Shown here piece after piece: positions 3,101 through 46,075 of a stretch of DNA of 64,000 nt. Source of the DNA: Amphibalanus amphitrite (lineage: Eukaryota; Arthropoda; Thecostraca; Balanomorpha; Balanidae); NCBI RefSeq assembly GCF_019059575.1, contig NW_024881865.1:124001-188000 (forward strand), read 5' to 3'. The stretch's first letter is position 1; every line of letters starts with the position of its first letter. The notes below the pieces were generated by a model that worked only from the letters and a program-made list of their open reading frames with translations, was not told the DNA's origin and searched no databases. Made by a program: the position numbers and the translations under genes.

Positions 3101-6100
3101 TGAGTCTGCCAGAGTGTGGATGTATTTACCAGAGGTGCTCGTTTTATCCGGGCTCGATGAAGTAGGGTGCACCACGTGCACCTCCCTTGAAGACCACCCA
3201 TAGGTCCATCACCTCAACAGGATGTTTACTTTGCATGACCGCTGCAATATTCTCGATACAATCCCCTATATGGCATGCCATTCTTTTTTATCGTATTCCA
3301 GTCGGTGATAAGATTTTTGGTCGCTGAAGTTTTGAACATTGTTTCTTTTTAATATGCTCAAGAGCTTCTTCCTTATATTCAAGTGAGTCATCTTGTATGT
3401 CCTCTGCTAAGAGTTATTTTACGACGATTACGTTAACTTTTTGTCCTAAGTATCCCCACACAATCCTTATCGTCCGTGATAACACGTTGACCTGTCCAGC
3501 AACCTTTACGTGGAATGGCATTGTTTTAAACAAAATGTTCTTGTTTTACTCGTTTAACATTAGTGTCTATGGGCGCGCGCAAAGCACTTGGAGCACCGTC
3601 GAACTATTTTGCTGCTCTTTTCCAGGAAGTTGCATGCTCATGGATGTAGTCATGTCAGATGATGCACAACTTTTGGGCGTTTCATTGCCATGATATAATT
3701 TATCAAAATAATGCCATGCCTACTCATGACCAGAGCCCAAAAAGCATTCCCGATTATGCTGCCCCACCCTGTACGGGAATGAGTTATCAGCTGTCTAATC
3801 GTAGACAACACAATGTCGAGCCTTAAACTGTAAGCCCGTATTGGTATTGTTTCTTTTATTTGGCTGTCGCACATTATTTATGGTTTGAAATATGATTTTA
3901 TGTAAAATAATTGATATGAAAAAGCCGTCTTATAAGTTATGACCCCATTTCACCACACGCAAGTGGCAGAAATGACAATGATCAGCTGACGCATTTTTCT
4001 TGGCCGAAGTCAGAGCGCGCAGCCTAACGCACCACCACCGCACCACAAAGTATGAGCAGAAGCCGCGCCCAAAGCCAGGGCCCCGGTAACGTGAGGTAGC
4101 CGAGTCGGGGCAGCGTGCGCTGACCCAAGCCGGGGCCGCAGCTTTGGGCGCGGTCTACCGCATCCCCGCGGGCAGCCCCGGGCTATCACATGACACCGGG
4201 AGGACGCGCGGCTCCGGCTTGGGTCAGTACACGCTGCCCTGACTCGGCTACCTCACGTTACCGGGGCCCTGGCTTTGGGCGTGGTCTACCGCACCACCTA
4301 ACAGGCGTGTTCGAAACCGCAGGAGCTGATGATGAACGGGTTTATCGAAACTTGATTGGATGAGCATATCGGTAATAGCGATTTCAGTGTGTGCATTTAT
4401 TGTTCATAGTGGTGTGAAATGTGGTTGGGGTACGACCGACAACCCGTCGGGGCGAATTTCGCACTGGGGTACTCAAAATTTGAAGAATTTAAGACGTTTC
4501 CATGAGTTTTGAAGGTATGGATAAGTTCTAAAAATCCGGTTCTCCTTATCTGGGCCATTAACTCCATACGGTCCAAGAAAGCTGGCACACTACCTTTAAC
4601 CAAATATCTAAAACGCATTATTACCTCTGGAGTCTCGAATATTTCCCTGAGGTAAACAATGTTTGGATGCTCGACCATTTTCAACACTTGAATCTCTCGA
4701 GAAAGCAGGAGCATCTTCAGCTTGTTCTGGAAAGAAAATATTGATTCAGTGGAGCACAAAAAAAGAAACCTACTTATCTCCGGTCGTCTTAGTGCAGCTG
4801 CAAACAAGATCTACGGAGCCAAGCTATTTAACAAATAGGTATTAAACAAATAGTATAGTAGATTATCGTAATGGATTGTGATAGTCTGAAGTCTGAACAA
4901 GATCGGTAACTCGATATAGATAGACAAATTGAATTATAAGTGGAAAACAATGGGAACGTTTTTGGTTATATTACTTTAAGTTGGCTACACATGTGTTTCG
5001 ATATAAATCTTTTTCAAGCCATAAAGACAAAATAAAATGTAAATAATTCGCCTAAACATCAACTTTGATGTTTAGGCGAATTATTTACATTTTATTTTGT
5101 CTTTATGGCTTGAAAAAGATTTATATCGAAACACATGTGTAGCCAACTTAAAGTAATATAACCAAAAACGTTCCCATTGTTTTCCACTTATAATTCAATC
5201 GGTAACTCGGTTTCGGCTGCATTGAGCGAATAATGTGTATTGTGTAGGTGAGGCAGCTGTAACGCATTACATCCGTGAATTGCGGAACAGCATCAAGCTA
5301 CTGTGCCGCATTACAGCCGTGCATTGCGGCACAGCATCTGCTCTTTGCCCGTTACGAGCAGAATTAGCGAATCTGCGAGCCATGACGATTAGAACGGCCT
5401 AACTGATAACAATAAACATTTTAGATGTGCTCTAATCCAAGCATAGATTCCAAGCTTTAACCCTCGCCGGCCGAGGGGGGGGGCGGGTGCCGCCCCCCCA
5501 TATGGTTTTTTCGCGATAGCTCCGAACACGCTGGCGATAGAGAGCTGAAACTTGGCATACCTGACCTTTGATCCAAGCCGCATCTTTTGACACCAACCGC
5601 ATTTTTGGGTCAGGTCAGGTCACTGACCTATGGCGTCATAAGTGAACCTCTGCACGGTCTTCAGATGTCGCAACTTCGCAACGCCCTCACTGCCAGAGGA
5701 GATGTCACAGGGAAATGAAACTTGCAGGATCTAGTATCCATTATGAGTCTCACAACTTGTATATCTCGGATTTTTCCTAAAGGTCATATGAGGTCAGGTC
5801 ATTTTCGTGACCTCACCATTATAAGTCAATGGGGAAAAATGAAAACTGCTATTCTGGCGCCGGGAACGATCTCCAACTATCTCAAGCGCACAGAATCGTG
5901 ATTTGATGCACTCCTTGCAAGGTTAGATGCGTCACTTTTGCAATGTTGACCTTCCGTGACGTCATTTATGACGTCATCAAGGTCATATTAGTTTTTCGTC
6001 AATAACTCCCGACCAAATTGAGCTAGCGAGTCGAGAAAGCCACCAATGGACTCAGGAAGACCTGCCGAATCGAATGATATGCGACATGACCTCTTTCGAC

Positions 6101-6975
6101 CAACTTCGTGAACTGGGGGTGCTGACCTGACCTTGACCTGAGGTCAACATCCTAAGTTGACCTGACCCGAACAAAAAGTATATCATTCGACGCGCCTGAG
6201 CGAGGCGAACACGATGCTGCCAAAATCGCGGCTCTGCGGCCGTTTTTTGCGAAGTTATTCACCAAAAACTGAACCGTACCCTGGGGCACTTGACCTGACC
6301 TCAGAGGTCACCGGTTGACCTAGGACCTTAAAATCGGGTACCAATCTCTGCGTCTCGTAACGGCGCACACGCTCGTTTTTTCCGCGACGCGCTAGCTCCA
6401 CCAGGGGCGAAACGGCGAGGGGGGTCGTACCCGCCCCCCCCCCCCTCGGCCGGCGCGTATGTAGAAAACCAATAGGTCCGGCGAGGGTTAACAATACATT
6501 TGCTGAGCTGCCGATACCTACTCTGCTTTATTGAAAGTAGCCTGGGGCTGTTTTTATAGGTATTGTTTTCTTTAAAAGGTAAATTTAGGACCGACGCAGA
6601 TAACCGATCCCAGGCTCTGTCCCGTCACAGGCAACGCCCCGTCCAGGCAATCCGCATCAACGAGGGTCAATAAGGGCCTGGCACGGTACTCACGCTGCTT
6701 TTGGCCACCACCTTAGCCGCCCAGGTGCGGCCGGTGGCTCGCTCCCGCGCCTCCCACACGGTGCCGAAGTTGCCGCGGCCCAGCTGCGTACCGAGCTCGT
6801 ACTTGTGCAGGAAGGCGGCAGCCGTCGGCAGGCGACAGTGCGGCGCCGCCTGCAGCCGTAGGCCGCGCCTCCGCCACGGTGCCGGCGAGCCCCGACCCTC
6901 CGAGCAGCGGGGCGAGACGGCGCCGGAGGTCCTCCACATTGGCGGAGTGGCAGGCGACGGGGACCAGCGAGACAC
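178..6975 (-). CDS. STK33-like serine/threonine protein kinase, seven exons
   Basis: Exons read on the minus strand: 6975-6694, 4726-4625, 2257-2119, 1960-1772, 1217-1063, 740-621, 366-178. All junction phases agree and give about 391 residues. The kinase domain is complete: glycine loop GRGNFG (66-71), VAIK-type lysine K88, alpha-C glutamate near 105, HRDLKLEN (178-185), DFG (211-213), CGTPYCM then APE split across a junction (238-240), and a WSMGV helix F. The tail segment DILTLMKEWR matches the NVLEMMKEW segment that I recall following the kinase domain in STK33, which supports both the family call and the last exon. Every catalytic residue is present, so it should be active. The start at 6975 is simply the first in-frame Met of exon 1; an upstream exon is possible. 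The last exon is less certain, because without it the frame stops at 597. A minus-strand AATAAA lies near 22-31. Alternative: another CAMK-group kinase. Confidence 0.82.
1063..1340 (-). repeat. Duplicated exon edge (APE-motif exon of the kinase)
   Basis: The polypyrimidine tract, acceptor AG and first codons of the kinase exon at 1217 recur about 85 bp upstream in the intron (around 1290-1325). The copy has an intact acceptor (ccacag) followed by CTCCGGAGATC, which again reads A-P-E-I if spliced in the same phase, then runs to a stop. It looks like a decayed tandem duplication of the exon edge. Confidence 0.6.
1419..1583. mobile_element. hAT-type MITE with 8-bp target duplication
   Basis: The 165-bp element has inverted termini cagaggcggatccag / ctggatccgccactg, bounded by a perfect 8-bp direct repeat tgaaaaca (1411-1418 and 1584-1591). 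It contains long G and C tracts and no coding sequence. The element at 22100-22247 has related termini and shares its central ttctttccatgc...taatgttaaaa segment. The 8-bp duplication fits the hAT superfamily; no transposase is present. Confidence 0.85.
2622..3771 (-). mobile_element. Degenerate mariner transposon
   Basis: Perfect 25-bp terminal inverted repeats begin CAGGGTGGGGCAGCATAATC (2622-2646 and 3747-3771) and are flanked by TA on both sides. The length of 1150 bp suits mariner. The minus-strand interior encodes scattered fragments of a mariner transposase: an FIEPG-like segment near 3150, SADLNP near 2945 (the SPDLNP region around the third catalytic Asp), and a C-terminal EKVIDAKGGQIG near 2765. 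These lie in different frames with stops, so the copy is inactive. Confidence 0.85.
4065..4283. repeat. GC-rich foldback repeat
   Basis: Two arms of about 70 bp (4065-4133 and 4213-4283), with only a few mismatches, are inverted around an 80-bp GC-rich loop. The motif gctttgggcgYggtctaccgc also occurs as a direct repeat at 4141 and 4272. It sits inside the TTAA-flanked element. No target duplication was found. Confidence 0.7.
4928..5199. repeat. Perfect palindrome, 135-bp arms with 2-base centre
   Basis: Bases 4928-5062 are the exact reverse complement of 5065-5199, with only ct between them. A 12-bp direct repeat atcggtaactcg lies at 4902-4913 and again at 5198-5209, overlapping the right end. 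The arms are AT-rich and noncoding. It lies in the first kinase intron. Either a young inverted duplication or a sequencing/assembly foldback artefact. Confidence 0.9.
5258..5340. repeat. Two-copy tandem repeat
   Basis: The segment gcattacatccgtgaattgcgg...cagcatc is repeated in direct orientation with small changes about 44 bp later. Noncoding, in the kinase first intron. Confidence 0.6.
5461..6487. mobile_element. TTAA-flanked TIR element dense in AGGTCA motifs
   Basis: Inverted ends CCCTCGCCGG (5461-5470) and CCGGCGAGGG (6478-6487) are flanked by TTAA (5457-5460, 6488-6491). Poly-G and poly-C tracts lie just inside each end. No coding sequence. By eye the 1027 bp contain about 20 exact AGGTCA or TGACCT hexamers, for example overlapping copies at 5612-5622 and 6123-6133, plus two TGACGTCA sites near 5956 and 5969. 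The element at 45199-46075 has related ends and content. TTAA specificity suggests a piggyBac- or Kolobok-like mobiliser, not shown here. Confidence 0.75.
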
Positions 6976-9786
6976 GGAGCTGGCTCACCGACACTCGTCA
7001 CTGGGAGTGGATAACTAGAAACGACCGTTTCGGAAAGATATACTGGAGTACCTACTTTTGGACATACGATCGGTGGTAAACATAAAATGACCGTTTAAAT
7101 TGCACAATGCACAGCCGTGTGAAGAGAGATGAGTTTACGTTACCTGATTCCTGTGTCTAGCCCTTGGTCTAGCCTTTGACAGCAAATGCCTGGCGCATGG
7201 TGAGTTTTGAAAGCATTGCAAAATGCAAAAGACATTTACGTTTGCGATGCTTGCGTTGCGCCGATAATGAAAATGGTGACTTTGAAAAATGTGAAAATGC
7301 AGGTAAATAAGGATAGGAGAGGCTTGATAACCAAACGAGTTAAACGTTCTAAAGCAGCCGAGACGCGAATAACATTAGACTACAAGATAAATGATGTTTG
7401 ATACGGCCTCAGTATGAAAATACTTGTTGCAATATACCTATCGTTGTAAGCAATCGCAGTTATCTTGAGTTCTCCAAAACGATGCGAACGCGACGAGCTG
7501 ACAAGATCCTCAAATCTCTTGTTGGTTCGTGACATTATTATGATTCAAACTTCCACGAAGAAACGTCTACATACGCTCGGAAATTGATAACAACACAGCT
7601 CACATTTTAAATTGGACCAATCGAGTCTAATGCCGGTGAGAATCGTGACTACTGTGGGAGCCTGGAGGGAGCCCAACCGACTATACCCGCGCTCCCACAC
7701 AGCCATGACCCTAACTGGTTCATTACGGTGAGTGCGTCCGTTGGCGCCCCCTTTCCCAGCCGCTCGCGCCGCCGGCTCTGGATGGGAGGGACGCCCTCCA
7801 GGACAGACAGACAGACAGACAGTTAAGTGCAGAGTCTGCACGATAGGCTCGGAGAGGGGCAGCGTCTGCCACCCCGGCGGTCTGGTCGGACAGACGGCGC
7901 CGCGGGGTCGGACGGTGGAGGGTGCCGTCTCCGGGTCGGTGCAGGCCGGGGAACAAAGGGGTTGTGTGAAGAGCATTAACGGGCTGATGGAATGAGGTGT
8001 GCATACTAAATGCGCGGCTATTTTAAGAAACGCTAAATGTTGGCAATCCTTTAGATGCCTACACTAATGTGTATTTAGACGGTTGTTGCGACGGTATTTA
8101 GACGGTTGACGATAATGACAGAAGATCAATAAAACGCTCAAAATAACACTGAAAAATTAAATGCTCGAATGGTAGTGCATAAGACCAGAGTTTTACGATT
8201 ATGTTAAGAGATGACTTCCCTTCACATAACTAGTAGAGATTAGCAGATTCAATGCCGCCAAAACGTATCGCAGCGTAAAGCTGGACAAACAACAAAGCCG
8301 CGTTACAGTTAGTTCGTGCAGCTGGAAGCGAGCCGTCCGTACAGCGCAGCAGAGTGTGACAATGTCGGTCAGTGCTGATCCATCCGGTCCGGGGTGAGGT
8401 GACACTGACCCCGACACGGTCCGTGACCCCTGCCCGGTGGGTGTCACGCCCGGTGGTCCGTCCGGCTGATCCCCTGTGATCTGACGGCAGCCGTCCGACT
8501 GGTCCTCTGTGACCTGACGGCAGCGGACTGGTCGGACAGGGATATCCTGCCGCTCCGGTCTCTGCTGCTGCTGCTGAGAGCGAGCTGCTGCACAGTGCAC
8601 ACGCCAGCCAATTTAAATACCGAGTGTGGACCAACCGTTTCAGCTTTCTAATTATCAAATTATGTACCTACAGCAGTCGCCACAATAGTACCTCTGAAAC
8701 TTCCGGCACTGTGTTCAGCGCCTGCCCAGCGGTTCCGCACCGTAAGGCGCATTAACGTATGATTAAACGTTCCTTCAAGCTTATGCCGTTGCGATATTTC
8801 CGTTTCATCGACATTTATAACGCAAATACGGTAGATGGGTCATAAGAAATCGATGTTTTAAAATACCATCGATGCCGGAGGACGTCTTCAACGACATTTT
8901 AATCTGCATTACGCCACCGGTAATCACTGAGACCGGACTACAGCCGGTCCATTGAGCCGTGCCCGGGGCTGGGACAGCCGCTCCCACTGACTCAGAGGCC
9001 TGTTTGGTCACCGGCGGCACTCCTCCGCCCGGCGAGCGGCCTCCGGTCGACCCGTGTGGCGTAACGTCCGTCCGGTGCCCGCCTCCGCCACGGAACTGCG
9101 TGCCACCTGCTACCTGCAGCGAGAGCTGCGCCTGAGTCACCGCTGGCGCACCTCAGACGCTCCCGGCGCACCCAGCGCACCGGCCGTGAACCGGCGTGAA
9201 CCGGCGAGATAACCGCACCGAATGATGCCGAGAGCTCTCCCCTCCCTAAGATGTGCCGAGGCGGGAACTGAGCAGCTGGTTTGTGGGTATAATTATCAAT
9301 TGTGTCGTAACTTGAAATGCATCGTGATTAGAATACCCCGGCACCGTCCTTATCTAAGCCCCAGTTACTAGTTAGCTTCCTGTTAGTCGTTTCCATTTAT
9401 TTGCAAGCTTATTCTTTAGCGCTTGACGGCTAGATATTTGTTATTGAACGTTTCTTGAATTGTTTAAATTGCGGTTAAATTGTATCCACGGTTAGAATGG
9501 CAGCGGCTGAAATCCGATTCATTCATAAGGTAAAACATGACATAAAACTGTTCATGAGCAGAATTAGGACGACAGGGAAGTGGCCCTTTTCATGACACAC
9601 CACTCATGAAAATTAAAAGGCCGTCGAGGTCGGCAGCGCCGGTGACGAGCGTCGCCCGACCGACCTCTGGGGGCTGAGCCGCCGAGGAAACTTCATAAGT
9701 CACAGACACCGACCGGGAAATAAGGGCAAACGTTTGCGGCCGCCACGCACGCCAGCAGCGACACTGCCAATCAACCGTCACGGTGG
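6976..9786. other. Gene-free interval between the kinase and a possible upstream exon
   Basis: I see no convincing protein gene. The interval holds a GACA microsatellite (7802-7822), a roughly 35-bp direct duplication around 8460-8530 (ctgacggcagc units) and a CTG run near 8563. It probably carries the kinase promoter, but I cannot point to a core element. Confidence 0.4.
7802..7822. repeat. GACA microsatellite
   Basis: Five consecutive GACA units in noncoding sequence. Confidence 0.9.
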
Positions 9787-9789
9787 TTG

Positions 9790-10091
9790 CGTGCCGGGAG
9801 CCTTTTTTGCGTGTGCGCCATCGCACTATACGTCCGTGCGTGCGTGTGTCTGTCGCGAGTCTTCGGTCCCCGGGCGTCTGTAGTTGCGGCTCTGGCCGGT
9901 AGGTGGCAGCAGCTGGGGGTGCCGGCCGGGCGCACACGGCAGTCGAGGCCGTTTTCTAGTGTAGGTTGGTTGTGTAAACGAGCCCGTCCGGTGGAGTTCG
10001 TGACGAAATATCAACAAGTGGTGAGCGAAGGAGCGTCTGGGAGCTGTGCGAAGTTCTAGTGGAGGCGCAGACCTGATCGGATCAAGCGAAG
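9790..10091 (+). other. Possible noncoding first exon
   Basis: A GC-rich plus-strand stretch ends at a strong 5' splice site, AAG|GTGAGT, with the junction at 10091/10092. The open frame in it is unremarkable. It could be a distant 5'-UTR exon of the WH1-CRIB gene 11 kb downstream or of an unrecognised transcript. No transcript evidence is available here; the exon start is a guess. Confidence 0.25.
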
Positions 10092-12658
10092 GTGAGTGAC
10101 CGTTTTACGATGATAAAACATTACCGTAATTACTTCGAATGAAGCGCCCATTGAAAGGGCAAGAAGGGATAGGGGTGCGTGTCATTTCTTTTGCTTGGCA
10201 TGCAGACCTCTGTACGCCGTGCAGAGGGCCATGCTAAGCTGGATTATTTAGGTACCTATGTACATCTTTATTTCATTATGCATTTTTAGTTACATTCAAT
10301 GTCATTAAATTAATAGTAAATTTGTCTATCTTATTTTCGTTCCTTGGTCATCAATCCGGTTTGACGGATGTCACCCATTTTTTTATGCCATGCGATGTTC
10401 CCAATGTCCTATACCTAGAGCAAAAGAGCATGATCTCATCTCCCCTACAGTAACCGGAAAATAAAAATAATTGAATCACTTGCAACTGAGCGAACTTTGC
10501 AAAATTAGGCGCAGTTCACCCAAACGCAAATCCAGACATCGATATACGCCATGCAGCTCACGCAACACTGGACATGAATTGCAATTTGCATGACGTACCG
10601 ATCGATCACTGCTGCTGTCCATATCCAGCCTGCATCGATGGGGGTGGGGGTGGGGTCGGGACCGGGGGCGTCCACCGTGACGGAGGGGCGCCCGGGGACG
10701 CCGCGGCCCCTCCCGCACCGGAAGGGGACGGGAACCCGTCAGCCGTGTCGCCGGGCCCCGCCCCGATCCGATTTAGCCGCCCAGAGGCCGGAGCTCACCC
10801 ACGGCCGCTGGAATGCCATATCGGGGTTATAGATCCCACATGCCGGTGTTTTGCCGACGGCAAGCGCCGTACCACGAGAGAAAGCTACGCGTTCCCTGCA
10901 TTCTGGGCGCCCCTCCCCGCCCCATTGACGAGAGAATCTCTCCTGGGTGCTTCGGCGACCCTCCCGTGCCGGAATTCACCATCTCAGCGGGCAAGGGTCA
11001 TAGGCGTTGTCTTGCAACGACGTCGTAAGCATTAGACCGACCTCGGATATCGTCGACTGTTGCTCTCTGAAGCGTCGTATTGCCCTGAGTGTTGACAACG
11101 AAAAGTGTTGACCGCTCAACTCACGGCATCGTATTGTGCTGTGACAGGCCCTGGCCTGACCCAGGAACGCTGACTGGCTCGTCTCCTCACCCTCCCGTGG
11201 TGCTAATGAGCCGGCTTTGTTGCGGCCGCTGGAGGGTCACCTTTTTACTCCCGGATCGTTAGGACGGGCGGCGGGATGCTGCGTCCGGGAAGACCTTTTT
11301 ATCGAGACGCCGTCTCATTCGGCAGCCTCCGGCAGGTGCACTGTTGACTGAGGCACTCCCCTGCCAGCGCTGTGTAGCGGCGGTGAGGTTTTGCAGCTCA
11401 CGATGAGGTTGGAGGGAAGGGATAGATAGCAGGGTTGTTGACTGCACCCTTTCCGTCTGAGGTTGGCTCGGCTGTCGGCGGGAGGCAGTCTGTGTACCAG
11501 GCGTGTTTGTGTCCAGAGGGACAAGTTTTCCCCGCACTCGGTGGGCGGTCCGTCCCCGTCCCCGACGCGGCGTCAGTGAAGAGGTGCCGCACCTTCTCCG
11601 TCGTATTTCCTCCTCCCGACCGCACAGGCACACGGCGCGAGCCACCATATTTCCCCATTTCGCCCCGGACACCCCCGACCGCACGAGCGAGCCGCTCCTC
11701 GTGTCCGTCCCGCCCACCACTCTGTAGTTACCGGCTAAAACACAATAGACGGAAAGGTCAGTGACGAGTGCCGGTACCCGCCCCGCTCTCCGGGCGGCGA
11801 TGGTCTTCATGGTAACAGCTAGTCAAACTGGTCAGGAACCGCAGACTCACTGTGCTGTCCTGCGGCGTGATAGTGGACGGTCAGCGAGCGGCGCAGGCCG
11901 TAAATAAAAATAGCTTGCTTGCTGGTCGTTTATACTCATATAAGGACTGGGTGTATTTACTACCGAGTTTATTTATGTTCAGACTAACAACGTTGTCGCT
12001 TTGTTGATGTGGTTTTGCCTATCAACTAGCGGAAGTTGTGAACCAAGGCGCTGCAGCATAACTTCCTCTGCACTTTGTTTCCGCACCGTACGGGTAAAAA
12101 GCTCCCTTGTAACCGCACTCCGCGCTCTGCGGAGTCTTTCATCTCCAGCTGCTCGTGTCCTTGTGAGCTGACACATTCAGGCCGGGCCGACGGACTATCA
12201 GGACCAGAGCTCGGACTACATGTCAGAAAGGCCGTCCGCCCGCCTGTCCCGGGTAGCCGGCTGCCCTTCGCGGCTGAGCGGCGCCCGAGCTGTATCCATC
12301 TCTCTTCCTGCTCCGTCCGTCTGTACCCTGCCGCGGCCGACTGCGCAGGAGGGGTCGAGGAGGCGGCGCCTTGTGACCTTCACTCGGTGAGATGGGTCCG
12401 GCGGCGGCGGACCGCCAGGTGACTGAGGTGAGCCATTCTCCCAGCCAACAATGGGCTGCCGGCGAGACTGGCCTCGACCCTCCCGGGCCACCGGCGCGGT
12501 GGCGCCCCCCCCCCCAGCGACAGTCGGGGGGGGGGAGTTTTAGACCCGCCCGGTCCGCACCTGAGAGTGTGGTCCATCGCAGGTGACCTCGGTCCAGTCA
12601 GACGCGCACCAAACATGCGCCGGTGGTGGTGCGTCCATCGGGTCACACAGCCCACCAT
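10092..12658. other. GC-rich noncoding interval
   Basis: Several long open frames on both strands (around 10570-11030 and 11260-11810) are compositional. None shows a recognisable domain, and frames overlap on both strands. I see no gene, RNA or element I can support. Confidence 0.4.
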
Positions 12659-14018
12659 CCGGCACGGTTCGTCGGAAGGTCATCTCAGGCTCAAAAGAAA
12701 CGGTATATACGATTCGAAAGCTGACGGTGAGCTGAATCCAAAAATGTATTTTTTATCAAAATCGATCGATGGCCTTTTTTGAAAATTGCGTTTTTGTAAA
12801 AACTTAATAATCTTTTATTCAACGGGCTGTCCCGGACATTCTTGAAAACATAAACACGTATTTTTTAGTTCCAGTGAAAGCTGAACGCCAAAAGAACAAT
12901 ATTTAGCGAAGCAATATTTCCGAACATGCATATGCGTCTCCCACAGCCGACAATAAGGCGCAATCACACAGCTCAGTGTCACGATGGACCAAAGTCAGCC
13001 ACACAGAAGCGTGAAATGACCCTTATCGACTCGCAGACCCGGCGCTCTCGGCCCGCCTGACCGGCCACGGAAAGAACGTTCGGCTCTCGTTCTACTAAAC
13101 AAATGTCATATTTGTCACTTTAACTGTCCACATCGCTATTAAAGATATTCAGGATACCTGTGAAGAAAATTCATTGTTCTGCTTGATTTACAACATGCTT
13201 TAATTTACATTTTTCTTATACATGTTTTGTTCCATCCAGCTGCGATCAGTGCCCGCGCAGGGGAAGTGAGCGGGGTTTCACTGTCAGAGGCTGTACTGGT
13301 GACAGCTGCTCGGCCGTGCGACCGGTCAAAGGTTACCCTGCCCCGCCGGGCGCTACCCCCACTCCACCCGAGCTGAGGCCGGTGCAACCTCTGACATTTC
13401 AGCGCGGCCAATTTTCCTTATATGGGCATGATACCAGGCTCAATTGAGCAAAGCAGACATGAACAAATGCAAATTAATGCATGATGTGAAGATGACAGAA
13501 CAATGAATTTTCTTCACAGGTATCCTGAATAACTTTAATAGCGATGTGGACAGTTAAACTGACAAATATGACATTTGTTTAGTAGAACGAGAGCCGAACG
13601 TTCTTTCCGTGGCCGGTCAGGCGGGCCGAGAGCGCCGGGTCTGCAAGTCGATAAGGGTCATTTCACGCTTCTGTGTGGCTGACTTTGGTCCATCGTGACA
13701 CTGAACTGTGTGATTGCGCCTTATTGTCGGCTGTGGGAGACGCATATCAATGTTTGGAAATATTGCTTCGCTAAATATTGTTCTTTTGGCGTTACTCTTT
13801 CACTGGAACTAAAAAATACATGTTCATGTTTTCAAGAATGTCCGGGACAGCCCGTTGAATAAAAGATTATTAAGTTTTTACAAAAACGCAATTTTCAAAA
13901 AAGGCCATCGATCGATTTTGATAAAAATTACATTTTTGGATTCAGCTCACCGTCAGCTTTCGAATGGTATATATCGTTTCTTTTGAGCCTGAGATGACCT
14001 TCCGACGAACCGTGCCGG
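12659..14018. mobile_element. Long inverted-repeat (foldback-type) element, 523-bp arms
   Basis: The left arm 12659-13181 and right arm 13496-14018 are inverted copies of equal length with only scattered mismatches, around a 314-bp spacer. The outer ends read GGCACGGTTCG / CGAACCGTGCC. Arms and spacer show no transposase. High arm identity implies a young element or arm gene conversion. No clear target duplication was found, though cccacc / ggtggg just outside may be an imperfect extension of the arms. Confidence 0.85.
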
Positions 14019-17000: not shown

Positions 17001-17132
17001 CAGGCTACCTGGTCTCGATGTGGTTATCGTGACGTTTCTGTACGTGCGCAATCGATATGTGTTTGACCTGTTTACGTGTTGAACAAAGGAGTTTGCCGTG
17101 AGCCCGTGAATGTGAAATACCTATTACTGTAT
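14019..17132. other. Interval without recognised features
   Basis: Mixed GC-rich and AT-rich sequence. Open frames are short and mostly paired across strands. A two-copy ggtcgcYgctcggtaccg repeat lies at about 14145-14176. I see no supportable gene. Confidence 0.4.
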
Positions 17133-17250
17133 AACGTCCGTGTTAACTAACAGTAATAAACGCATGAACTGAATAAGTTCAGACCGTTGCATTTGGTTAA
17201 CGTCCTTGTTAACTAACTAGAATAAACGCATTAACTGAATGAGTCAGACC
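17133..17250. repeat. Two-copy tandem repeat
   Basis: Units 17133-17185 and 17199-17250 share aacgtccNtgttaactaac and the following aataaacgcat...cagacc with a few changes. Noncoding. Confidence 0.7.
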
Positions 17251-17347
17251 ATGGCTCCAGATCCCTGGTTCATGCCTAATGCGAGAACTCTCATTTCTGT
17301 AATAAAAGGACGTCCGATGGGACAGGGATGATTGATTTTACATTTAA

Positions 17348-19822: not shown

Positions 19823-19933
19823 GCTGACTCAGCACAATGACGTCACACCCGGACTGCAGGTGACGTCATCTGTCAGTCCGGCGGTGACGTCACCTGTCGG
19901 TTATAGCCGCCACAGGGGCTTAGGCTGACGTCA
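19823..19933. promoter_or_regulatory. CRE cluster with adjacent AP-1/Maf-type site
   Basis: Four perfect TGACGTCA octamers lie at 19838, 19861, 19885 and 19926, all within 96 bp. An almost perfect Maf-type site GCTGACTCAGCA lies at 19823-19834. The two middle CREs sit in a short tandem unit, ggtgacgtcaYctgtcRg. The cluster is 1.6 kb upstream of the WH1-CRIB start codon, on whose promoter it may act. Factor binding is inferred from motif identity only. Confidence 0.6.
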
Positions 19934-28554: not shown

Positions 28555-28608
<54 letters not shown>

Positions 28609-37600: not shown

Positions 37601-40600
37601 TCTCCCGCCGCTGTTGGCGGCGCTCCTGCCTGACTCGTCCCAGCGCCGGATGGTGGTGCCTCTGCTGTCTGACTATGAGCAGCCCCAGCCGTCGTCGTTC
37701 CATTCTGGACCACCCCGGAGTCCCCAGCTGCACCGGCCGTCGCCGGTGGCTCAGCGGAATCCCCAGACGCTGGCGATGTGCCGCTCCCCGCAGCCGAGTC
37801 CGTCGGGACACACTCTCCGTTCTCCAGAGGCGCAGTCGGCTCGGCGGCCGGCGGAGCGAAGGCCTGCAGAATTTCGAGCAGCCGGAGAACCTTCGGAGAA
37901 GAGTACTGCCAGATTTGTTCCCGCAGGTCCAGCTTGTCAAAGACGTGGTCACATAGAGTCCTGGAATGGCGCAGAGGCGAGAGTGCTGTAAGGAGCTAAG
38001 TAACGACAGAGAGCAGGATTGCGCAGCCTTTCAGTCCCAAGGTCTCGTTCCAATCATCGAATGCAACACATGAATCTTTTAGCGTAACGCGCCATGCGCT
38101 GGTACTCGGCCCCGCCTTCACTTTCAACTCAGCAGAATGTAAAACAATGTTGGCAAGCGATCAGCCAGCATGCGTTTGCTATTACCCAATACCAACCCGG
38201 CCTCCGTGATAGTTTCTACGGCCGTCAGTCGTCACACTGACCGTATTCGGATGAGGTCGGAGAACACCACTCCCAGCAGGAGGTAATGTCGCACGTAGCC
38301 GATCTTCCTGCGAAGCTTCTCCACCTCAACTAGCAGCTGGCTGGCCGCACGGTCGGCACACCACGGACCTAGCACGCACGCAGCAACACCCACACGGTCA
38401 GACAGAGAGGACGGTTAGGGCTGGTCATGGATATGGAAGATGGCATAGCGTCGGATGTGTAGTGAGTGCGTGGGATGAGCGATCATTGAGGTGGTTGGGA
38501 ATGACATGATGATAATCTCACGCATGGTGAGACCCCGCAACGCGCAACTGACTTGCTTTTATATATTCAAATTACACAATTACTTCCGAGAGATAGCCAA
38601 TACAATGAGGAAACACACCAGTACCAAACACGGTGGTGTGCCTTCAAATATAGTACGGGTACGATTACGAGTGTGACACTCACCAAGTTCGTTGAGTATG
38701 TAGAGGAAGTCGCAGATGATCTGCTTGGGTTCTTTGATCGGGTCCGGCTCTCCGGCCAGCAGCTCCTCGTACATGTCGCCGTAGATTTCTCTGGGCTCGT
38801 ACCGGTGCGTGGTGAGGAACTGAAGACAGCGGAGCGCCACGGCCTCCAGCCGGCGGTGCAGCTGGGTCGGGTCGTCCACCTCGCCACACTCGACAATCAC
38901 CTCCTGGGGTCGGGTCGAGTACCTGGGGGGCGGAGATAGGGGTATGACTCTTCACACTCGACAACCACTTCATGGAACCGTATCGAGTACGCTACAGAGG
39001 GGGACCGACAAGAGGTGAGAAAGACACTAGGGGATAGAAACCTGACCATGTGGTCAAATTCAATCGGTGCAAAACTGCGATAGGAGTGAGCCGTGACGGA
39101 CGAACAGATGTCAGCTCCCCGTAAAAAAACTTTCACCGAGCGATCATAAATAAAAACACGCATGCAGCCTCGGAAAATAAGCGACACGAGCTAAACATGC
39201 CATTGCCATTCGACAAACATCTCCGGGTACGATTACCGCCGCACGCCTCACAAACCTTGACTTCTCTCTACTCCAATACCAGCGCCCAACCAACCAACCC
39301 CATCAAATTCTCCTACCACCTCGCCTACTCCCCTCTCCTCGGCACCCGTGTACGCTCTCCACTCACTTGTTGACGGCATCCAGGTCGTGTACGGTGCTCA
39401 CTGCGCAGCCCATGCTGTTCTGCAGGCTCTCGATCTGGGCCTCCAGTTTCACGGGCGTCACCTTCTTGTTGATGATGGACGCCGTCAGACCGAGCACCTT
39501 GGGACGCTGGCCGGCCGGCGCCTCGTTCACCAGCTTCATGATCTGAGCGGCAGAGCGAGATGGAGAGCTAAGTTATCGAGGCAGCTAATAGACGGAGATA
39601 TGCACAGATGACACGTCATGAGAGCACTACAGCTAATGACTGGAATGGTGGCTTTGCTACTGAGCGAATCTAAATATGTTTTAAATAATCAACATTTCAG
39701 CCATCATTCCTCCTTCCCCACTTCTCCTTCAGGCTATGAGCCCAAGGATCGCGCCTTCTGCTAGAGGAGTGCTTCCTCTATCAACGAAACCATACCTGTC
39801 TCATGGGGCTGTCCTTGACAGTGTGGTGGCACTCGTCCAGGACGAGCAGGTTGACCCGCGTCACGTCCAGGAACCCGTGCAGCAGCATGTTACAGAAGAT
39901 CTGAGAGGACATGACCAGCACCTGGTGGCGAAAGAACGGGGTGAGGTGTGGTTTACATGGTAGTTGAACGACAGTACGCTGTGATCTTAAAATGTCAGTC
40001 GATTTTCGATTTATACGTGAATATGAACAAACTGGAAAAGGCAATTTATCTTAGAAATTACTCGAAGCGCCGTTTAGTGTGATTCACGACAATCGAAAAT
40101 GGCAATCAGCGATAGAGCTAAAAAGGCAGGTAAAAAGGAGGGATCTTCTAAAAAGGAGGGGTCGTGGGTCGAGACAAGGAAGGGAGAGAGACGATACGGC
40201 ATAAGGAAAAGAATTAAAGAGATAAAGAACAAAAGAGACAAGAGGAACACAGGGAGAGGGGGAAATAAGAAAAGGAAGAATGGAGAACAACAAGTGGATT
40301 TTCTATCTTCACGATTGACTACCTAATACAGAAATTTATAAAGCTCGAAATCATTTTTGCCCCTGGGTACACCCAATGTGCAGGGCGTCCAGCATCCAGC
40401 ATATTGGACGAAACTGCCAACTGCGCCGTCCCCCCTCTGACCTGATTTTCCACCAGGTGCGCCTCCCAGTCGTGTTTCTTCCAGGCGTCGAGCGTGGAGC
40501 TGCCCACGAACTGTCCTACGGTGAGGTCGGTGTGCTGCTCGATGGCGCGAGCCTGCTGCTCCACCAGAGGTACCGTGTTCACGACAAAGAACGTACGCTT

Positions 40601-41151
40601 CCCGCCCTCCGACCACGCCCTGAAACACGCGACACGACGACGTTTGGGGATGAGGGGCATGGATGGCAATCACAGTGAAGCGCTTTTCTTGTAAGATATT
40701 CGTAATTTACCAAAAATAATATGGAGAGAACTGATAACAAGCTCCACGACACAAATCGCACACATACATGCAAGTCCGAGCCGAGTAAATTATTTTCTGA
40801 TTGATATTATTTAATGCGAATACAGCTTAAATGGTTGCCCTTGATAACATCTGAACACCGCATAGAGAAATGGAAACATGCCGACGGCATTTATCGCCTT
40901 GATATCGACAACTTTCAACACAACTTACACCCGCCCAGAGCCCTCATGGCTTGTTGTCAGCCCGCTGCGTACCTGCGGACGTCGGGCGCCATCTCCTTGA
41001 TGAGCAGAATAGCGATGAACGTCTTCCCGCTGCCGGTTGCCAGGTGGGCGATGATGTTGCGCTCCTTGGCATCCTCGAGTATCTCTACTTGGTACTCGCG
41101 TGGTGTAAAGACGTTCGGCGCAATCTGGTCCACGATGCCGCGGTGGGCCAT
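27343..41151 (-). CDS. Dcr-1: Dicer-1, 23 exons, complete
   Basis: Minus-strand exons: 41151-40973, 40619-40442, 39921-39796, 39542-39367, 38922-38684, 38368-38242, 37960-37337, 37014-36628, 36401-36254, 35933-35721, 35415-35236, 34863-34650, 34301-34111, 33824-33646, 33285-33032, 32739-32506, 32185-30846, 30505-30263, 30036-29700, 29384-29167, 28798-28630, 27920-27845, 27505-27343. All phases agree, giving 2064 residues. Domains: helicase with Walker A ATGSGKT (38-44), DECH (148-151) and QSKGRAR (591-597); DUF283 ([16 protein letters not shown], about 680-760); PAZ (about 860-1140); an acidic then Ala-rich insert (about 1250-1490); RNase IIIa ([10 protein letters not shown] ... [16 protein letters not shown]); RNase IIIb ([14 protein letters not shown] ... 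[18 protein letters not shown]); C-terminal dsRBD (54 residues in the last exon). All metal-binding acidic residues of both RNase III domains are present. The sequence tracks human DICER1 closely, so it is the microRNA Dicer rather than Dcr-2. The start has a good context (GCAATGG). Exon 10 uses a GC donor. Confidence 0.95.
28447..28674 (-). repeat. Duplicated exon edge in Dicer exon 21, across a CT repeat
   Basis: The last ~45 bases of Dicer exon 21 and its donor (28626-28674) recur at 28447-28493 with a few changes. The copy still reads [14 protein letters not shown] and keeps a GTAA donor. A long CT tract separates the copies, so slippage or unequal exchange at the microsatellite is a likely cause. 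Confidence 0.75.
28507..28620. repeat. CT/CCCTCT microsatellite
   Basis: Over 100 bases of nearly pure pyrimidine (CT)n with CCCTCT interruptions, in a Dicer intron directly downstream of exon 21. Confidence 0.9.
36385..36575 (-). repeat. Minisatellite seeded from the Dicer exon 9 acceptor
   Basis: The acceptor and first codons of Dicer exon 9 (plus-strand gacggttacagtacctat) recur whole or in part at about 36446-36475, 36491-36508, 36513-36530 and 36551-36568 in the upstream intron. The copy at 36551-36568 keeps a perfect TAG acceptor followed by GTACTGTAACCGTC. Splicing there would keep phase, then reach a stop. Confidence 0.7.
38886..39000 (-). repeat. Duplicated exon edge of Dicer exon 5
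   Basis: The start of exon 5 ([14 protein letters not shown], 38922 downward) has a diverged copy in the upstream intron at about 38949-38995, readable as [14 protein letters not shown] after a TAG acceptor. The copy's acceptor is not in phase with exon 4, so it would be nonproductive. Confidence 0.65.
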
Positions 41152-41440
41152 TGCGGCGATAGCGCGGCTCCGCGTGCGGAGGACGTGCCGTTAAGAGAGA
41201 AAGCTGCTGCTAATATGGCGAGTAACTAGTTGCAATAATCTGGATGAACGGCTGCTAGTAAAGTTCACAGGCAGCTTATGGTTGTCTGGGTAAGACTGTC
41301 AGAACATATAGGTAGATGATCCTGGAACAATGGAAAACCAATCAAAATAAGTGGTAACTATTCAGTCAAGGCTTGGACTATGCATTGCAAGCACAAATGT
41401 TGGTTCTTAGTCTGTGACCCACTGAAGCTCATAGATTTTC
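41152..41440. promoter_or_regulatory. Dicer-1 upstream region
   Basis: This sequence must include the Dicer-1 5' UTR and proximal promoter unless a noncoding exon exists further upstream. It is GC-rich up to about 41190, then AT-rich. I see no TATA box or clear motif. Confidence 0.35.
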
Positions 41441-41443
41441 ATT

Positions 41444-42455
41444 CGCTGCTGGGGGATGCTTGAACCCCCCACCCCTTCTAACACTGCTACTAGGTCACAT
41501 AGTGACACAAGGTAAGCTGCGTTCGAATGAGCCTAAAACCTCAAAGAAAGTGCTTCAAGTATTATTCACTGTTCAGGTCTGGTCATGGGTCAGGTCACAT
41601 GAACCTAGATCAGGTCAAGTTTGTGACCTCACCATTTTATCCCAAAGGCAATGGGATAATATTGAAATACGCCTCTTTTGGACAAGCGTCATACTTAACA
41701 CTCAAATATCTTATTATAGGTAAATACAAAGTACTGAGTCAAATTATTCGTAACCCCTCTGTATGGCCCTGAGGTCATCTTAGGTCATGAAAGGTATTCA
41801 ACAGTTTTTTTTTTCAATTTCAATTCAACAGTTTTTCAATGAACTTTTGATAGAGGCATGCTAGAGCGATGGGAACACCTTAGATGTGTTCAGCTCGATG
41901 ATACGGATCGATTGATATGCAGCGCAGCCTTTCTTGGTCAGGTCATGACGACCTATGACCTATGACCAAATTTTGAAGTTAAACTTTCAAGGTCAAATTA
42001 TGGTTTATTCGTCGCATATCGACGAGAAGAACACGATGTCAGTGAAAGTACGCTCGCGCAATTAAGTCAAATGTTAACTATTGGAGAAAAACTGTTTCAG
42101 CAAAACAAATGTCTATTTTGACAGTTTTTACCCTCTGCACTCTGCAGGCTAAACCATATTGACCTTAGGTCAAATCTGAGGGATTGTTCAAAAGGAGCGT
42201 TAAAAGGGCTATCGAATGCGCTTTTCCGCGGCGCTGTAGCTCTATTCATTTCCGAGTTATGCGCCGGTTCATAAAAAATGTCGAACAAGGCGAAATTTGA
42301 CCTCTGATGACCCCTGGTGACCTGACTTAAACATGCCCTTAGTAGTTTCGCCATTATTTTTAACGCTCTTTCGAGCGCCACCACTGTGTACCGCTACATG
42401 ACCCAAGGGCCCAATTAGAAGGGGTGTGTTCACCCCCCCCCCCCCCCCAGCAAAG
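41444..42455. mobile_element. TIR-bounded element dense in AGGTCA motifs
   Basis: Imperfect inverted ends (gctgggggatgcttgaacc / ggtgtgttcaccc...ccagc) contain poly-C tracts and accccttct / agaaggggt. About 14 exact AGGTCA/TGACCT hexamers lie in the element and the 100 bp beyond it. A further inverted pair (42118-42185 versus 42505-42565, ttgaccttaggtcaa) overlaps the right side, so the true boundary may be nearer 42650. Similar phrases, such as gtgacctcaccatt, occur in the element at 5461-6487. Noncoding; target duplication not resolved. Confidence 0.5.
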
Positions 42456-42869
42456 GCGTGGAAATTCAGGATCCCCAGCGGGCAATGGTCAATGCTTTTT
42501 CCATAAGACTCTCTCCGATTTGACCTTAGGTCAATGGTTAAACCTTCAGAGGGTAAAAACTCAAAATAACATTTCTGTGGAAAATGTTTGTCTGCAATAA
42601 CTTTTGTCATCTGACAAAGCATATTTAACATTTGACACTCGCAATAACTTTTGAGGATAATCAGCTAACCTAATAAGTTGTAAAACTGGAAACAAAACCA
42701 ACAAAGGTTACCAAATGAGACCATCAAGCCATATGATCCCCTGATCAAAGTGCAAGGGAATAGGGGGTAAGTAAAATATGAGACCTCTCACTTTGAAGAT
42801 GTCTGAGCCTTTTCCAATGCAACCTAATGTGTGTCACTGTGAATTGCTCAATTTTGTTATGCTTGTTGG

Positions 42870-43140
42870 CAGGGCTGCGGAGTCGATGGATTTTCGGCGA
42901 CTCTGACTCCGACTCAGGCTTTCAAAAACCAGCTCCGACTCCGACTCCGGGCAGAATTGTTGACTCCGACCGACTCCAACTCCAGACTCCGACTCTGCAG
43001 ACCTAGCAGGGCTGCAGAGTTGACAGATTTTCGGTGACTCCGACTCCGGCTCGGGTTTCTAAAATCGACTCCGACTTCGACTCCGACTCTGGTCACAACT
43101 GTTGACTCCGGCCGACTCCGACTCCGACTCCGCAGCCCTG
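42870..43140. mobile_element. Dimeric GACTCC-rich MITE, copy A
   Basis: This 271-bp element begins cagggctgcggagtcg, ends cgactcc...gcagccctg, and has perfect 8-bp duplications cttgttgg (42862-42869, 43141-43148). It contains two tandem half-units, each opening with cagggctgc; the second starts near 43009. GACTCC runs fill the interior. The 8-bp duplication suggests a hAT- or P-type mobiliser. Noncoding. Confidence 0.85.
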
Positions 43141-43148
43141 CTTGTTGG

Positions 43149-44133
43149 GCATGCAAGCTTCAACCTGAAATGTTGCTTGCCAGGCTTGTTAATCTAAGAC
43201 ACAGCCAGGTTTGCATTTTAACTTGCCAAGCCTGCGCTCCCATCAAGCTGGGTGTGCCTCGGATGTGCACTTGTCCAAGTTTGCAGTCTGGGTAACAAAT
43301 ATCGACATTATGAAATCAAAATTTCATGCATGTTGTTGCCCTCAGAAACTGCTAAAAAATTTAAAGTGATTGCCCAGTTACTGTAGCTATGGCGGGCATT
43401 ATAACTTTTCCTGAAGCAAAGTCACTTGATATCCAGACTGGGAAACATTCATGCACTACACCGGACGCCCTTGAGAGCCTCTTGCGTCAAAATTCATCGC
43501 AAGATTTTTGTGCTGAAATTTCTGCATGATTTGCACCGAAAATTGGGTGCCTATTTGTGCCAAAATTAGGCCACTTTTATATAAAGCACATGTGCACATC
43601 TACCGATCAAAGCTAATATCAACCAGACAGAGCATTCAGGGGCCTTGGACACTCTCCCACGTTTGAGCGTCCGAATAAGTTTTTTATTGGGGATGTGTTC
43701 GAACAAACCTCCGAACAAGTTGTTGTTTTGGGTTATGGCGCGTAGCAGCTTGGACCCCAGAGTTGGACCCCGCCCCAGGAGACTGCGGAGTGCGGATTAT
43801 GTTAAAGCTAGGGGTTAATGTCAATTGTTTGTTGACCTCGCACCATCACCAATGAAATGCTAAGCAAAGCACCCTTCACTCAATAAACCCTGGAACACCC
43901 TGCCACCCAATTTAATATAATAACCATGGCCACATATCAATATACCATAATCAAACCATAACAGCACACACAATATATATAATTCAATACAATACAATAT
44001 AGTTCAATATTTAACGTTTTTCCGTCACTGGCCGCCGCGCATTGGCATTGCGTCATGTTGGTCGTATGCTCAACTTTCTGCTATTATTGTCAAATGTCCC
44101 AGCCTGGTCCCAGCTTGCTTTGTATGTACCCTT
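43149..44133. other. AT-rich interval without recognised gene
   Basis: No supportable gene. A simple (a)atacaatac / tatagttcaatat stretch lies near 43975-44015. Its gttcaatatttaacgttt also occurs inverted at about 51240-51260, suggesting the outermost arms of the large composite inverted repeat reach this far. Confidence 0.4.
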
Positions 44134-44157
44134 AGCTCTATTGACGGGTGAGACTAA

Positions 44158-44961
44158 GGGTCTGTTCCCGTCGCTCCTCCCAAAAAATCTCGGATGAGGT
44201 TGGATGAGCTTGGAAGTTGGAGGAGAGCCGTTTCAGAGGAGCAGGGCTGCGGAGTCGATGGATTTTCGGCGACTCCGACTCCGACTCCGGCTTTCAAAAA
44301 CCAGCTCCGACTCCGACTCCGACTCCGGGCAGAATTGTCGACTCCGACCGACTCCAACTCCCGACTCCGACTCCGCAGACCTAGCAGGGCTGCGGAGTCG
44401 ACAGATTTTCGGTGACTCCGACTCCGACTCCGGCTCGGGTTTCTAAAATCGACTCCGACTCCGACTCCGACTCCGGTCACAACTGTCGACTCCGACCGAC
44501 TCCGACTCCGACTCCGACTCCGCAGCCCTGCAGAGGAGCCACGGGAACATTTTAGCGAGGAAATCAGCTGTTTGCGGGCTGTAACGGTCGGCGATTTATG
44601 GCGCGCAAACATAAATCAAGAGATGATAATCGCTTTCTAATAAAATAACCTTAGATTAATATCAAACATTACTATTTAAAGATATCCAATCGTCATCAAT
44701 CACTAAAATCATTTCCACTTCCCTCAAATCTCATTTATAAACAATTCACATTTGTATTACGTGCGCCAAATATGTCTATGCAAGAGCCTCCTCCAAAAAA
44801 CCAACTTTCGTTTGGGATGAGGGAGGAGGCAAATAGTGGTGGTGAGATGTGAAATCAAGATGAGCTTGGAGGAGCTTGGAGGAGCGACGGGAACGATTTT
44901 TTGAAACGAGAGGAGGTTAGAGGAGCTTGGAGGAGGTTAGAGGAGCGACGGGAGCAAACCC
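44158..44961. mobile_element. PIF/Harbinger-like MITE carrying a nested MITE
   Basis: The ends gggtctgttcccgtcgctcc / ggagcgacgggagcaaaccc are inverted with two mismatches. The flanks taa (44155-44157) and aaa, with an empty site reading taa in the partner arm, fit a 3-bp TWA target duplication. A second ggagcgacgggaacg repeat lies near 44880. It contains the dimeric MITE at 44242-44530. Noncoding. Confidence 0.65.
44242..44530. mobile_element. Dimeric GACTCC-rich MITE, copy B
   Basis: This 289-bp copy has the same ends and two-unit structure as the element at 42870-43140 and is closer to a clean GACTCC repeat. Perfect 8-bp duplications cagaggag flank it (44234-44241, 44531-44538). The element sits inside a Harbinger-like MITE. 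Confidence 0.88.
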
Positions 44962-45198
44962 AAAATGCTTACTTCGAAATCTAAGCTGCTTTGCGGCATT
45001 GGCGGTTATGTGCGGCGTGTATGCCGCATGATTAGTAAGCGGCGACCACTAAATTAAAAACTCAATAGCTTTGACCTGTTTTCAATGGATAACACTGCAT
45101 ACCAAAAATGTCCATCGCTCTCGTCATAGGATATTTAGATTTAAATAACTAACTTATCTACATCATCGTTTTGAACCAAATTAATACTTTCAACTTGA

Positions 45199-46075
45199 CC
45201 CTCGCCCGTATTGGTGTTTTTCCAGCCGCGAACGGCGAACGTATAAGGTATAACCCCTTGCCGTTTCGCTCCTGCCTGATCAAGCGAGAGCTTCGCGGAA
45301 AAAAACGAGCGTGTTGCCCGTGACGAGAGGAAGCCGATGATACCCAATTTTAAGGTCCTAGGTCATCGGTTGACCTTCCAGGTCAGGCCAATGACCCAAA
45401 AGGCGGAAAATTGGGACCTGTTAGAACGTCGTAGTGTGGCTGCTATGAGGTTTTCCGGGGTGCTGATCACGAATATCATGCTAGTTTTGATGATGATGTC
45501 TTCATTCATTTAGGCCAGGTCGGGTCAGGTCAGGTCAGGTCAACCAGTAGAGGTCCTGCCGGGTATTTGTAGTAGGTGTCAACCGCCTCTGACAGCCTCG
45601 TAACATGTTACGAAGGCACCAAAACTACTTTGTAAACGTTCATGTGGTTGCTAAATTCGAATTCAGCTCGAAAAACTGGCCTAGAAACATGTCAAACTCG
45701 AAAAAGTGAACCGAGTTCACCACTGACCTGACCTTCAGGTGACTTTGACACCCACCCTAATGCATGGGGGCAACATCATATCACATGTTTGAACGCTTGA
45801 AACGGCCTTGCTTGAAACCACGAAAAGACTGCAAACGCGCTGCTAATGCGAGCCGACATACGCTGAATCGCGGTTCCGGCCAAACATGGTCTCGAAAAGT
45901 AGGTCACAGGTCAAAGGTTATTTGCGTCAGGGTCATGAAATTTTCAGGGTAGGTGTAAAATTGATCAACGCGAGGATACTAAACGTTACGTCGTGATCGG
46001 CCGCTTTTTACGCGAGTTATTCGCGAAAAACCGAGGGGAGTCCGTTCGACCCCCCCCCCCCCTAAAGGGCGAGGG
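45199..46075. mobile_element. TTAA-flanked TIR element dense in AGGTCA motifs
   Basis: The ends CCCTCGCCC (45199) and GGGCGAGGG (46067-46075) are flanked by TTGA (a one-base variant of TTAA) and TTAA. A poly-C tract lies near the right end. About ten exact AGGTCA/TGACCT hexamers occur, including three in direct overlap near 45525-45542. Ends and content relate it to 5461-6487. The intact partner arm near 50900 shows the uninterrupted target. Confidence 0.7.

Follow-up and report, generated by a model that had tools for sequence, protein, structure and literature searches.

A 64,000-nt stretch of the Amphibalanus amphitrite genome (assembly GCF_019059575.1, contig NW_024881865.1, positions 124,001 to 188,000; hereafter, the window) contains three non-coding elements of about 0.9-1.0 kb each, namely two related copies (E1 and E3) and a looser one (E2), in which the hexamer AGGTCA and its reverse complement TGACCT are strongly concentrated. 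Here, we describe these elements and the termini of E1 and E3, together with the enrichment of the word, its mirrored orientation, and a regular spacing of its clusters that was recognized post hoc; all of our results rest on three elements within one window. E1 and E3 belong to a single non-autonomous family, which has CCCTCGCC termini and TTAA-type sites as in piggyBac, and E2 is probably a mobile element as well. As judged from sequence, the explanation that we favor, at somewhat less than an even chance, is that E1 and E3 (and probably E2) are piggyBac-like TTAA/CCCT non-autonomous DNA transposons in which AGGTCA is the putative recognition word of the mobilizing protein.

Identity of the three elements

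The element boundaries used for all counts are as follows.

5457..6491, plus strand: E1, 1035 bp including both TTAA, within an intron of a protein-kinase gene (gene on the minus strand); 20 exact AGGTCA
5457..5470, plus strand: left TTAA and terminal inverted repeat CCCTCGCCGG of E1, with a 14/14 match to 6478-6491
6478..6491, minus strand: right terminal inverted repeat and TTAA of E1
41440..42460, plus strand: E2, about 1021 bp with approximate boundaries and degenerate long inverted arms; 13 exact AGGTCA
45195..46079, minus strand: E3, 885 bp including TTGA and TTAA, a member of the E1 family that is inverted relative to E1; 10 exact AGGTCA

The ends of E1 read TTAA/CCCTCGCCGG on the left and CCGGCGAGGG/TTAA on the right, which gives a perfect 14-base inverted match (TTAA plus a 10-bp repeat). 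No other TTAACC...GGTTAA pair in the window, at a spacing of 80 to 4000 bp, has at least 11 of 16 matching bases. E3 has the same CCCTCGCC termini as E1, with the left TTAA appearing as TTGA, one base off. In fact, the right end of E1 (6282-6422) aligns to 45398-45254 with 76.7% identity (E about 1e-23), which places E3 in the E1 family in an inverted orientation. E2 resembles E1 and E3 in architecture, with G/C runs located just within its ends, and shares a 33-bp match with E1 around a cluster. An earlier description of this DNA, made without database searches (the sequence-only reading), had called all three elements transposons; the name is justified for E1 by the TTAA and the 10-bp perfect repeat and for E3 by the CCCTCGCC termini, but for E2 it is probable and unproved. 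The hallmark of piggyBac elements is given, in the available part of PMC2872659, as a TTAA target with a terminal inverted repeat of 12-19 bp and a CC[C/T]T terminus. Both E1 and E3 start with CCCT, and their perfect terminal repeats of 10 bp (E1) and 9 bp (E3, from the printed ends) are each shorter than 12 bp.

The same reading had taken the elements to be non-coding, and this agrees with our search of their open reading frames (ORFs). Five stop-to-stop ORFs of at least 90 aa overlap E1 or E2, none of which had a match in a Pfam scan (an 88-aa E2 ORF lay outside the scan), and no ORF in E3 is above 77 aa. Moreover, Rfam found no family over 40500-46500, which takes in E2 and E3 and leaves out E1, and a 27-base pattern common to the E1 and E3 ends had 0 matches in viral contigs.

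With the words masked, inverted arms are clear in E2 (389 vs 249.8 ± 20.4, with a maximum of 311 in 200 shuffles) and not clear in E1 (269 vs 225.9 ± 20.5, maximum 283) or E3 (229 vs 202.9 ± 20.9, maximum 266), while without masking each of the three lies above 100/100 shuffles. Single-strand folds are more stable than those of 12 shuffles per element (z of -7.1, -9.9, and -2.8), as mirrored arrays would make them, and we do not take this as an RNA function. The best palindromes within 60 bp of the element center score 11/20 in E1, 12/20 in E3, and 14/20 in E2, the last being reached by 0.01% of window centers, but at a position 35 bp off center. A TTTTTCG..AATAACT box was rejected as a common unit: it has 25 window hits with at least 14/22 matches versus 13-19 in six shuffles, and 20 matches are reached only at 5991 (E1) and 46031 (E3) with a query that was itself composed from such pieces.

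E3 is located inside another repeat (44963-46316) that has a second, inverted copy at 50415-51129, and the middles of the two copies differ. The flanks of E3 match this second copy with 91.9% identity (44963-45196 to 51129-50896) and 98.3% identity (46139-46316 to 50592-50415). The left match ends at the element edge, but a clean empty site for E3 was rejected, as ~300 bases of different sequence separate the two matches in the second copy. An inner piece of E2 (42079-42183) is duplicated in inverted form at 42510-42599 (73%), just beyond the right edge of E2, and TTGACCTTAGGTCAA is found in both.

Enrichment and mirrored orientation of AGGTCA

The whole window holds 85 exact AGGTCA/TGACCT words against 30.8 ± 6.1 expected from shuffles, with 43 inside the elements (2941 bp) and 42 across the remaining 61,059 bp, or 14.6/kb versus 0.69/kb. 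As these 42 words outside compare with 30.4 ± 5.9 expected, the excess of the window lies mainly within the elements. Individually, E1, E2, and E3 contain 20, 13, and 10 exact words, while 1000 dinucleotide shuffles per element give means of 0.4-0.5 and maxima of 4, 4, and 6, respectively. The counts by eye in the sequence-only reading (about 20, 14, and 10) were thus close, and its chance estimate of ~0.5 was essentially right. AGGTCA is the top enriched hexamer of the three elements, and AGGTC and GGTCA are the top pentamers. Among the 18 one-base variants of AGGTCA, the largest excess is that of GGGTCA (9 vs 2.1 expected from the remaining window), and AGGTCC (5 vs 1.0) is also among those most in excess.

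The words are also mirrored between element halves. Exact sites number 13 plus and 7 minus in the left halves and 6 plus and 17 minus in the right halves (Fisher p = 0.015), and when one-mismatch sites are included the numbers become 27/15 and 13/34 (p = 0.0007). That is, the words point inward from both element ends and form two mirrored arms, a feature beyond what had been described earlier. Among exact AGGTCA pairs with a spacer of up to 12 bp (n = 30 over E1, E2, and E3), the 5-bp overlap AGGTCAGGTCA is the most frequent, accounting for 7 of the 30, and the other classes occur 1 to 3 times; the direct overlaps mentioned in the earlier description are therefore real.

Regular spacing of the clusters

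The words are grouped in the following clusters, with no strand assigned.

5612..5629: E1 cluster 1, with the only perfect inverted repeat of the IR1 type in the window (AGGTCA-C-TGACCT, 5617-5629)
5781..5813: E1 cluster 2, of which the portion 5791-5823 resembles E2 41607-41639 (33 bp, 85%)
5947..5985: E1 cluster 3, near the element center, where TGACCT and AGGTCA flank two TGACGTCA words
6087..6163: E1 cluster 4
6291..6321: E1 cluster 5, the homolog of the cluster at 45360-45385 in E3
41592..41629: E2 cluster 1
41772..41787: E2 cluster 2
41940..41995: E2 cluster 3, near the element center
42160..42172: E2 cluster 4, TGACCT-T-AGGTCA, with the identical 13 bp again at 42521-42533
42298..42323: E2 cluster 5
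45360..45385: E3 cluster, element coordinates 695-720
45527..45542: E3 cluster, element coordinates 538-553, three AGGTCA overlapping in a 5-bp register
45724..45734: E3 cluster, element coordinates 346-356
45901..45913: E3 cluster, element coordinates 167-179

The CRE-like 8-base palindrome TGACGTCA occurs 9 times in the 64 kb (5957, 5969, 19838, 19861, 19885, 19926, 21466, 21477, and 50345), where about one would be expected from composition; two of the nine belong to the central cluster of E1.

In all three elements, the clusters lie ~175 bp apart, which is a post hoc observation and one that goes beyond the sequence-only reading. The centers of clusters with at least two sites are at element positions 162, 338, 508, 672, and 846 in E1; 170, 338, 523, 724, and 869 in E2; and 170, 348, 543, and 705 in E3, while two exact sites stand alone at positions 106 (E1) and 53 (E2). 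The best shared period is 175 bp, which was reached in 0 of 2000 random placements, and the three elements taken singly gave p = 0.002, 0.03, and 0.03. When the cluster definition and the minimum separation were varied (12 settings), p lay between 0.001 (the floor) and 0.097, with two settings above 0.05; under the strictest separation, p was 0.06-0.10 for two of the three cluster definitions, and with cluster centers only and an 80-bp separation it was 0.0002 (the floor). As the test was framed after the regularity had been noticed, with a range of 120-240 bp chosen around it, and E1 and E3 are kin, these p values serve as a guide only.

A putative binding array for the mobilizing protein

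Since the mirrored clusters lie inside a transposon with clean termini, we consider them best read as putative sites for the mobilizing protein. AGGTCA would be recognized either by the transposase of an unseen autonomous partner or by a host factor that this transposase needs. With clusters along both arms and facing inward, the two ends would present mirrored arrays, which would raise avidity and help synapsis, and selection on transposition may be what keeps the word. It is well established that DNA transposons can have repeated motifs within their ends. In piggyBat, according to the available part of PMC11707139, the transposase binds repeated motifs in both ends, and an inner one restrains activity.

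Support for such binding sites also comes from the termini of E1 and E3, the enrichment within the elements, the mirrored strands, and the words kept in two comparisons of related stretches. At the homologous end of E1 and E3, identity is 22/23 (96%) in hexamers versus 94/115 (82%) outside, with 3/4 (E1) and 3/3 (E3) exact sites kept where the outside identity predicts a fraction of 0.30. Similarly, E1 cluster 2 and E2 cluster 1 share 16/17 (94%) of bases in hexamers versus 47/66 (71%) outside, with 2/3 and 2/2 exact sites kept (0.13 expected).

Several points weigh on the other side. In a third comparison, that of the two E2 arms, identity is 48/53 (91%) in hexamers versus 270/348 (78%) outside, and the exact sites kept (2/7 and 2/6, with 0.22 expected) are in no clear excess; moreover, all of these retention numbers are very small, too small to decide the matter, and come from alignments drawn to the sites. 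The ends of E2 have no recognizable TTAA target site and no CCCT, its termini being G-rich, and a piggyBac-type transposase was not found among the 22 scanned of the 200 listed window ORFs. Additionally, the arrays continue through the element middle, and exact sites in the outer ~140-170 bp are limited to two isolated ones (5562 and 41492). A subterminal transposase-binding repeat had been offered in the sequence-only reading as the plainer alternative to hormone receptors. It indeed fits better than receptors do, though the word subterminal is inexact for clusters that run through the whole body in ~175-bp steps, the outermost of which lie 137-170 bp from each element end.

Alternative explanations

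A serious rival, though we think it a doubtful one, is that the arrays are passive: a GGTCA pentamer would have expanded in an ancestral element and been multiplied by slippage and by segmental duplication of ~175 bp, with no role for the product. Runs in a 5-bp register, including the seven exact AGGTCAGGTCA, are consistent with such an origin, as are the match of E1 cluster 2 to E2 cluster 1 with a one-unit shift and the shorter length of E3, which lacks 150 bp and one cluster relative to E1. The spacers between clusters also look mutually related when measured against a shuffle null, the 95% level being exceeded in 26 of 272 comparisons (13.6 expected) and the 99% level in 11 (2.7 expected). 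Against real window segments, however, there is no general excess (13/272 above the 95% level, 13.6 expected), but only a tail, with 7 above 99% (2.7 expected) and 3 above 99.9% (0.27 expected), one of these three being the known E1/E3 end homology. A diverged satellite monomer, for which the shuffle excess would have spoken, is therefore not demonstrated, and Tandem Repeats Finder (minimum score 50) reported no array in E1, E2, or E3. What also speaks against passive multiplication is that, in two of the three comparisons, more exact words survive than expected, albeit with very small counts, and that the words are mirrored between halves.

Alternatively, the words might be working half-sites for nuclear receptors (the ecdysone receptor or orphan receptors) that serve germ-line activity of the element and incidentally spread response elements near genes, as the sequence-only reading had suggested. 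The hexamer is exact for such receptors, and both GGGTCA and AGGTCC are among its variants in excess. One perfect IR1 of the ecdysone-receptor type is present (5617-5629), and two free-standing direct repeats of the DR4 class, at 5781/5791 (E1) and 41772/41782 (E2), speak somewhat for receptors; a third DR4 is inside the pentamer run of E3. A consensus for monomer-type receptor binding is YCAAGGYCR, and three of its four matches in the window (5977, 6128, and 41987) are in E1 or E2. GGGTCA fits the receptor consensus RGKTCA given in PMC1785376, and there is a precedent in Alu repeats, which, according to that paper, have spread DR2 sites bound by retinoic acid receptors.

The arrangement of the words, however, does not favor receptors. 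The commonest pair, the 5-bp overlap, has no receptor spacing, and two receptor monomers should not sit on half-sites that overlap by 5 bp at once. Neither IR1 nor any of DR1-DR5 prevails among the 30 close pairs, in which IR1, DR1, and DR5 each occur once, DR4 three times, and DR2 and DR3 never. Monomer-binding receptors need a 5' extension of the half-site, yet the base 5' of AGGTCA (n = 43) is C in 17 cases, partly owing to overlaps, A in 9, G in 9, and T in 8, and so no consistent extension is seen; on the 3' side (A 14, G 12, T 9, C 8) there is likewise no clear preference. On these grounds, the case for hormone receptors appears weak, and we hold it to be unlikely. If a host receptor does bind the words, E1-E3 would be DNA transposons that bring arrays of half-sites to genes, and in this they would resemble the Alu repeats of primates.

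Quite unlikely, in our judgment, is a chromatin device in which the AGGTCA clusters would sit in accessible linkers, with one nucleosome per spacer and about 5-6 phased nucleosomes per element. The ~175-bp cluster spacing in all three elements and the lengths of 1035, 1021, and 885 bp, which would correspond to about 6, 6, and 5 such steps, are in keeping with it. In addition, WW recurs with a period of 9.5-10.5 bp in the 17 cluster-free stretches, more strongly than in shuffles or in window segments (at T = 10.2, 2.51 vs 1.46 ± 0.34 and 1.33 ± 0.31, respectively). Yet the spectrum is mixed: further signals come from WW at T = 17 and from SS at T = 14, and at 10 bp SS shows no rise (0.95 for T = 10; 2.16 for T = 10.5, with p 0.055-0.07). 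Gaps from one cluster to the next (n = 11, 101-181 bp) vary widely around 147 bp, and the spacing test is post hoc and weakens under the strictest separation. We see as highly unlikely the further proposal that the ~1-kb element is built to the nucleosome repeat, its 5-6 spacers having a 10-bp rotational signal and its linker AGGTCA being read by a zinc-finger or nuclear-receptor host protein; at any site of insertion, such an element would set up open, phased chromatin that would favor its excision and might make hormone-receptor sites at genes accessible, in this case 0.3 kb upstream of the putative Dicer-1 start.

Gene neighborhood and other repeats

E1 is flanked on the minus strand by kinase exons that match consecutive segments of the kinase profile, positions 1-38 at 6667-6984 and 45-92 at 4397-4810, both below the Pfam cut-off, while segments 115-164 and 164-212 follow further downstream and are above it. 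In the direction of transcription, the left edge of E2 precedes the putative Dicer-1 start codon (41151, minus strand) by 289 bp. A 60-aa exon at this start matches Dicers in the protein data bank (PDB), with Dcr-1 in register (query 10-60 to chain 10-60); the next ORF matches the N-terminal helicase regions of Dicers, and the RNase III exon has its best match in Dcr-1. A further 5' non-coding Dicer-1 exon may exist. Both placements given in the sequence-only reading, E1 in a kinase intron and E2 upstream of Dicer-1, agree with these matches.

The window also contains long palindromes (fold-back elements) at 12659-14018, 4928-5199, 4063-4284, 58216-58473, and 19838-19892, with identities of, for example, 88.7% over 1.36 kb and 99.3% over 272 bp; the one at 12659-14018 has AGGTCA about 20 bp from each tip. 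Between E2 and E3 are two arrays of CGACTC-type repeats (42869-43141 and 44241-44531) with a mutual identity of 90%, and a tandem repeat of 55 bp, in which 22-bp units are nested, lies at 46845-47047 (96% matches). A 637-aa stop-to-stop ORF at 60539-62452 (minus strand) has a reverse-transcriptase domain (RVT_1, E 5e-32) and probably comes from a non-LTR retroelement.

Comparison with known systems

Among the matches listed in the open-access literature, no title describes an AGGTCA-rich DNA transposon. The comparisons below draw on the available portions of the cited papers. Among the systems close to E1 and E3 are the CMITE elements of Acropora corals (PMC2872659), which are likewise non-coding, with TTAA targets and CCC-type terminal repeats, and whose families combine different termini with a common internal region, in which they can be likened to E1-E3. 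However, CMITE are cnidarian and only ~100 bp long, and their common internal region, as described in that portion, is one conserved 75-bp block with no regular AGGTCA clusters. Pokey of Daphnia, in the piggyBac superfamily, and its mPok elements (PMC3849761) share the TTAA targets with E1 and E3 and include large miniature inverted-repeat elements (MITEs; about 750 bp). Their 5' and 3' non-coding regions have short repeats that recur in these MITEs, and full-length Pokey has a series of 200-bp repeats. In contrast, the 200-bp repeats originate from an rDNA spacer and lie upstream of the transposase, and the available text mentions no AGGTCA word.

The Alu DR2 retinoic-acid response elements (PMC1785376) resemble E1-E3 as mobile elements that spread AGGTCA-type half-sites near genes. 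Whereas Alu is a retroposon with a DR2 pair and supporting receptor chromatin immunoprecipitation (ChIP), E1, E3, and probably E2 are DNA transposons with many words, mostly outside receptor spacings.

The ends of piggyBac and piggyBat (PMC11707139, PMC8151067) provide the likeness that bears on a recognition word for the mobilizing protein, as they have transposase-binding repeats inside the termini, though binding in E1-E3 is only putative. In piggyBat, the word is GCGGGA and lies in the outer 150-210 bp, while E1-E3 have as many as 20 words, almost all of which lie more than 137 bp from the ends and continue through the center. What sets E1-E3 apart is how many sites they have, that these extend over the entire body, and that the clusters follow a ~175-bp step. 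The elements are more ordered than the earlier description saw and probably represent a TTAA variant whose putative internal binding arrays are unusually extensive. If the words are transposase sites, E1-E3 would represent a TTAA element whose sites follow one another at regular steps from arm to arm, in contrast to piggyBat with its end-restricted arrays, and would offer a natural test of why spacing would matter. Whichever protein binds the words, their regular spacing is a simple property that can be measured in any genome with the family.

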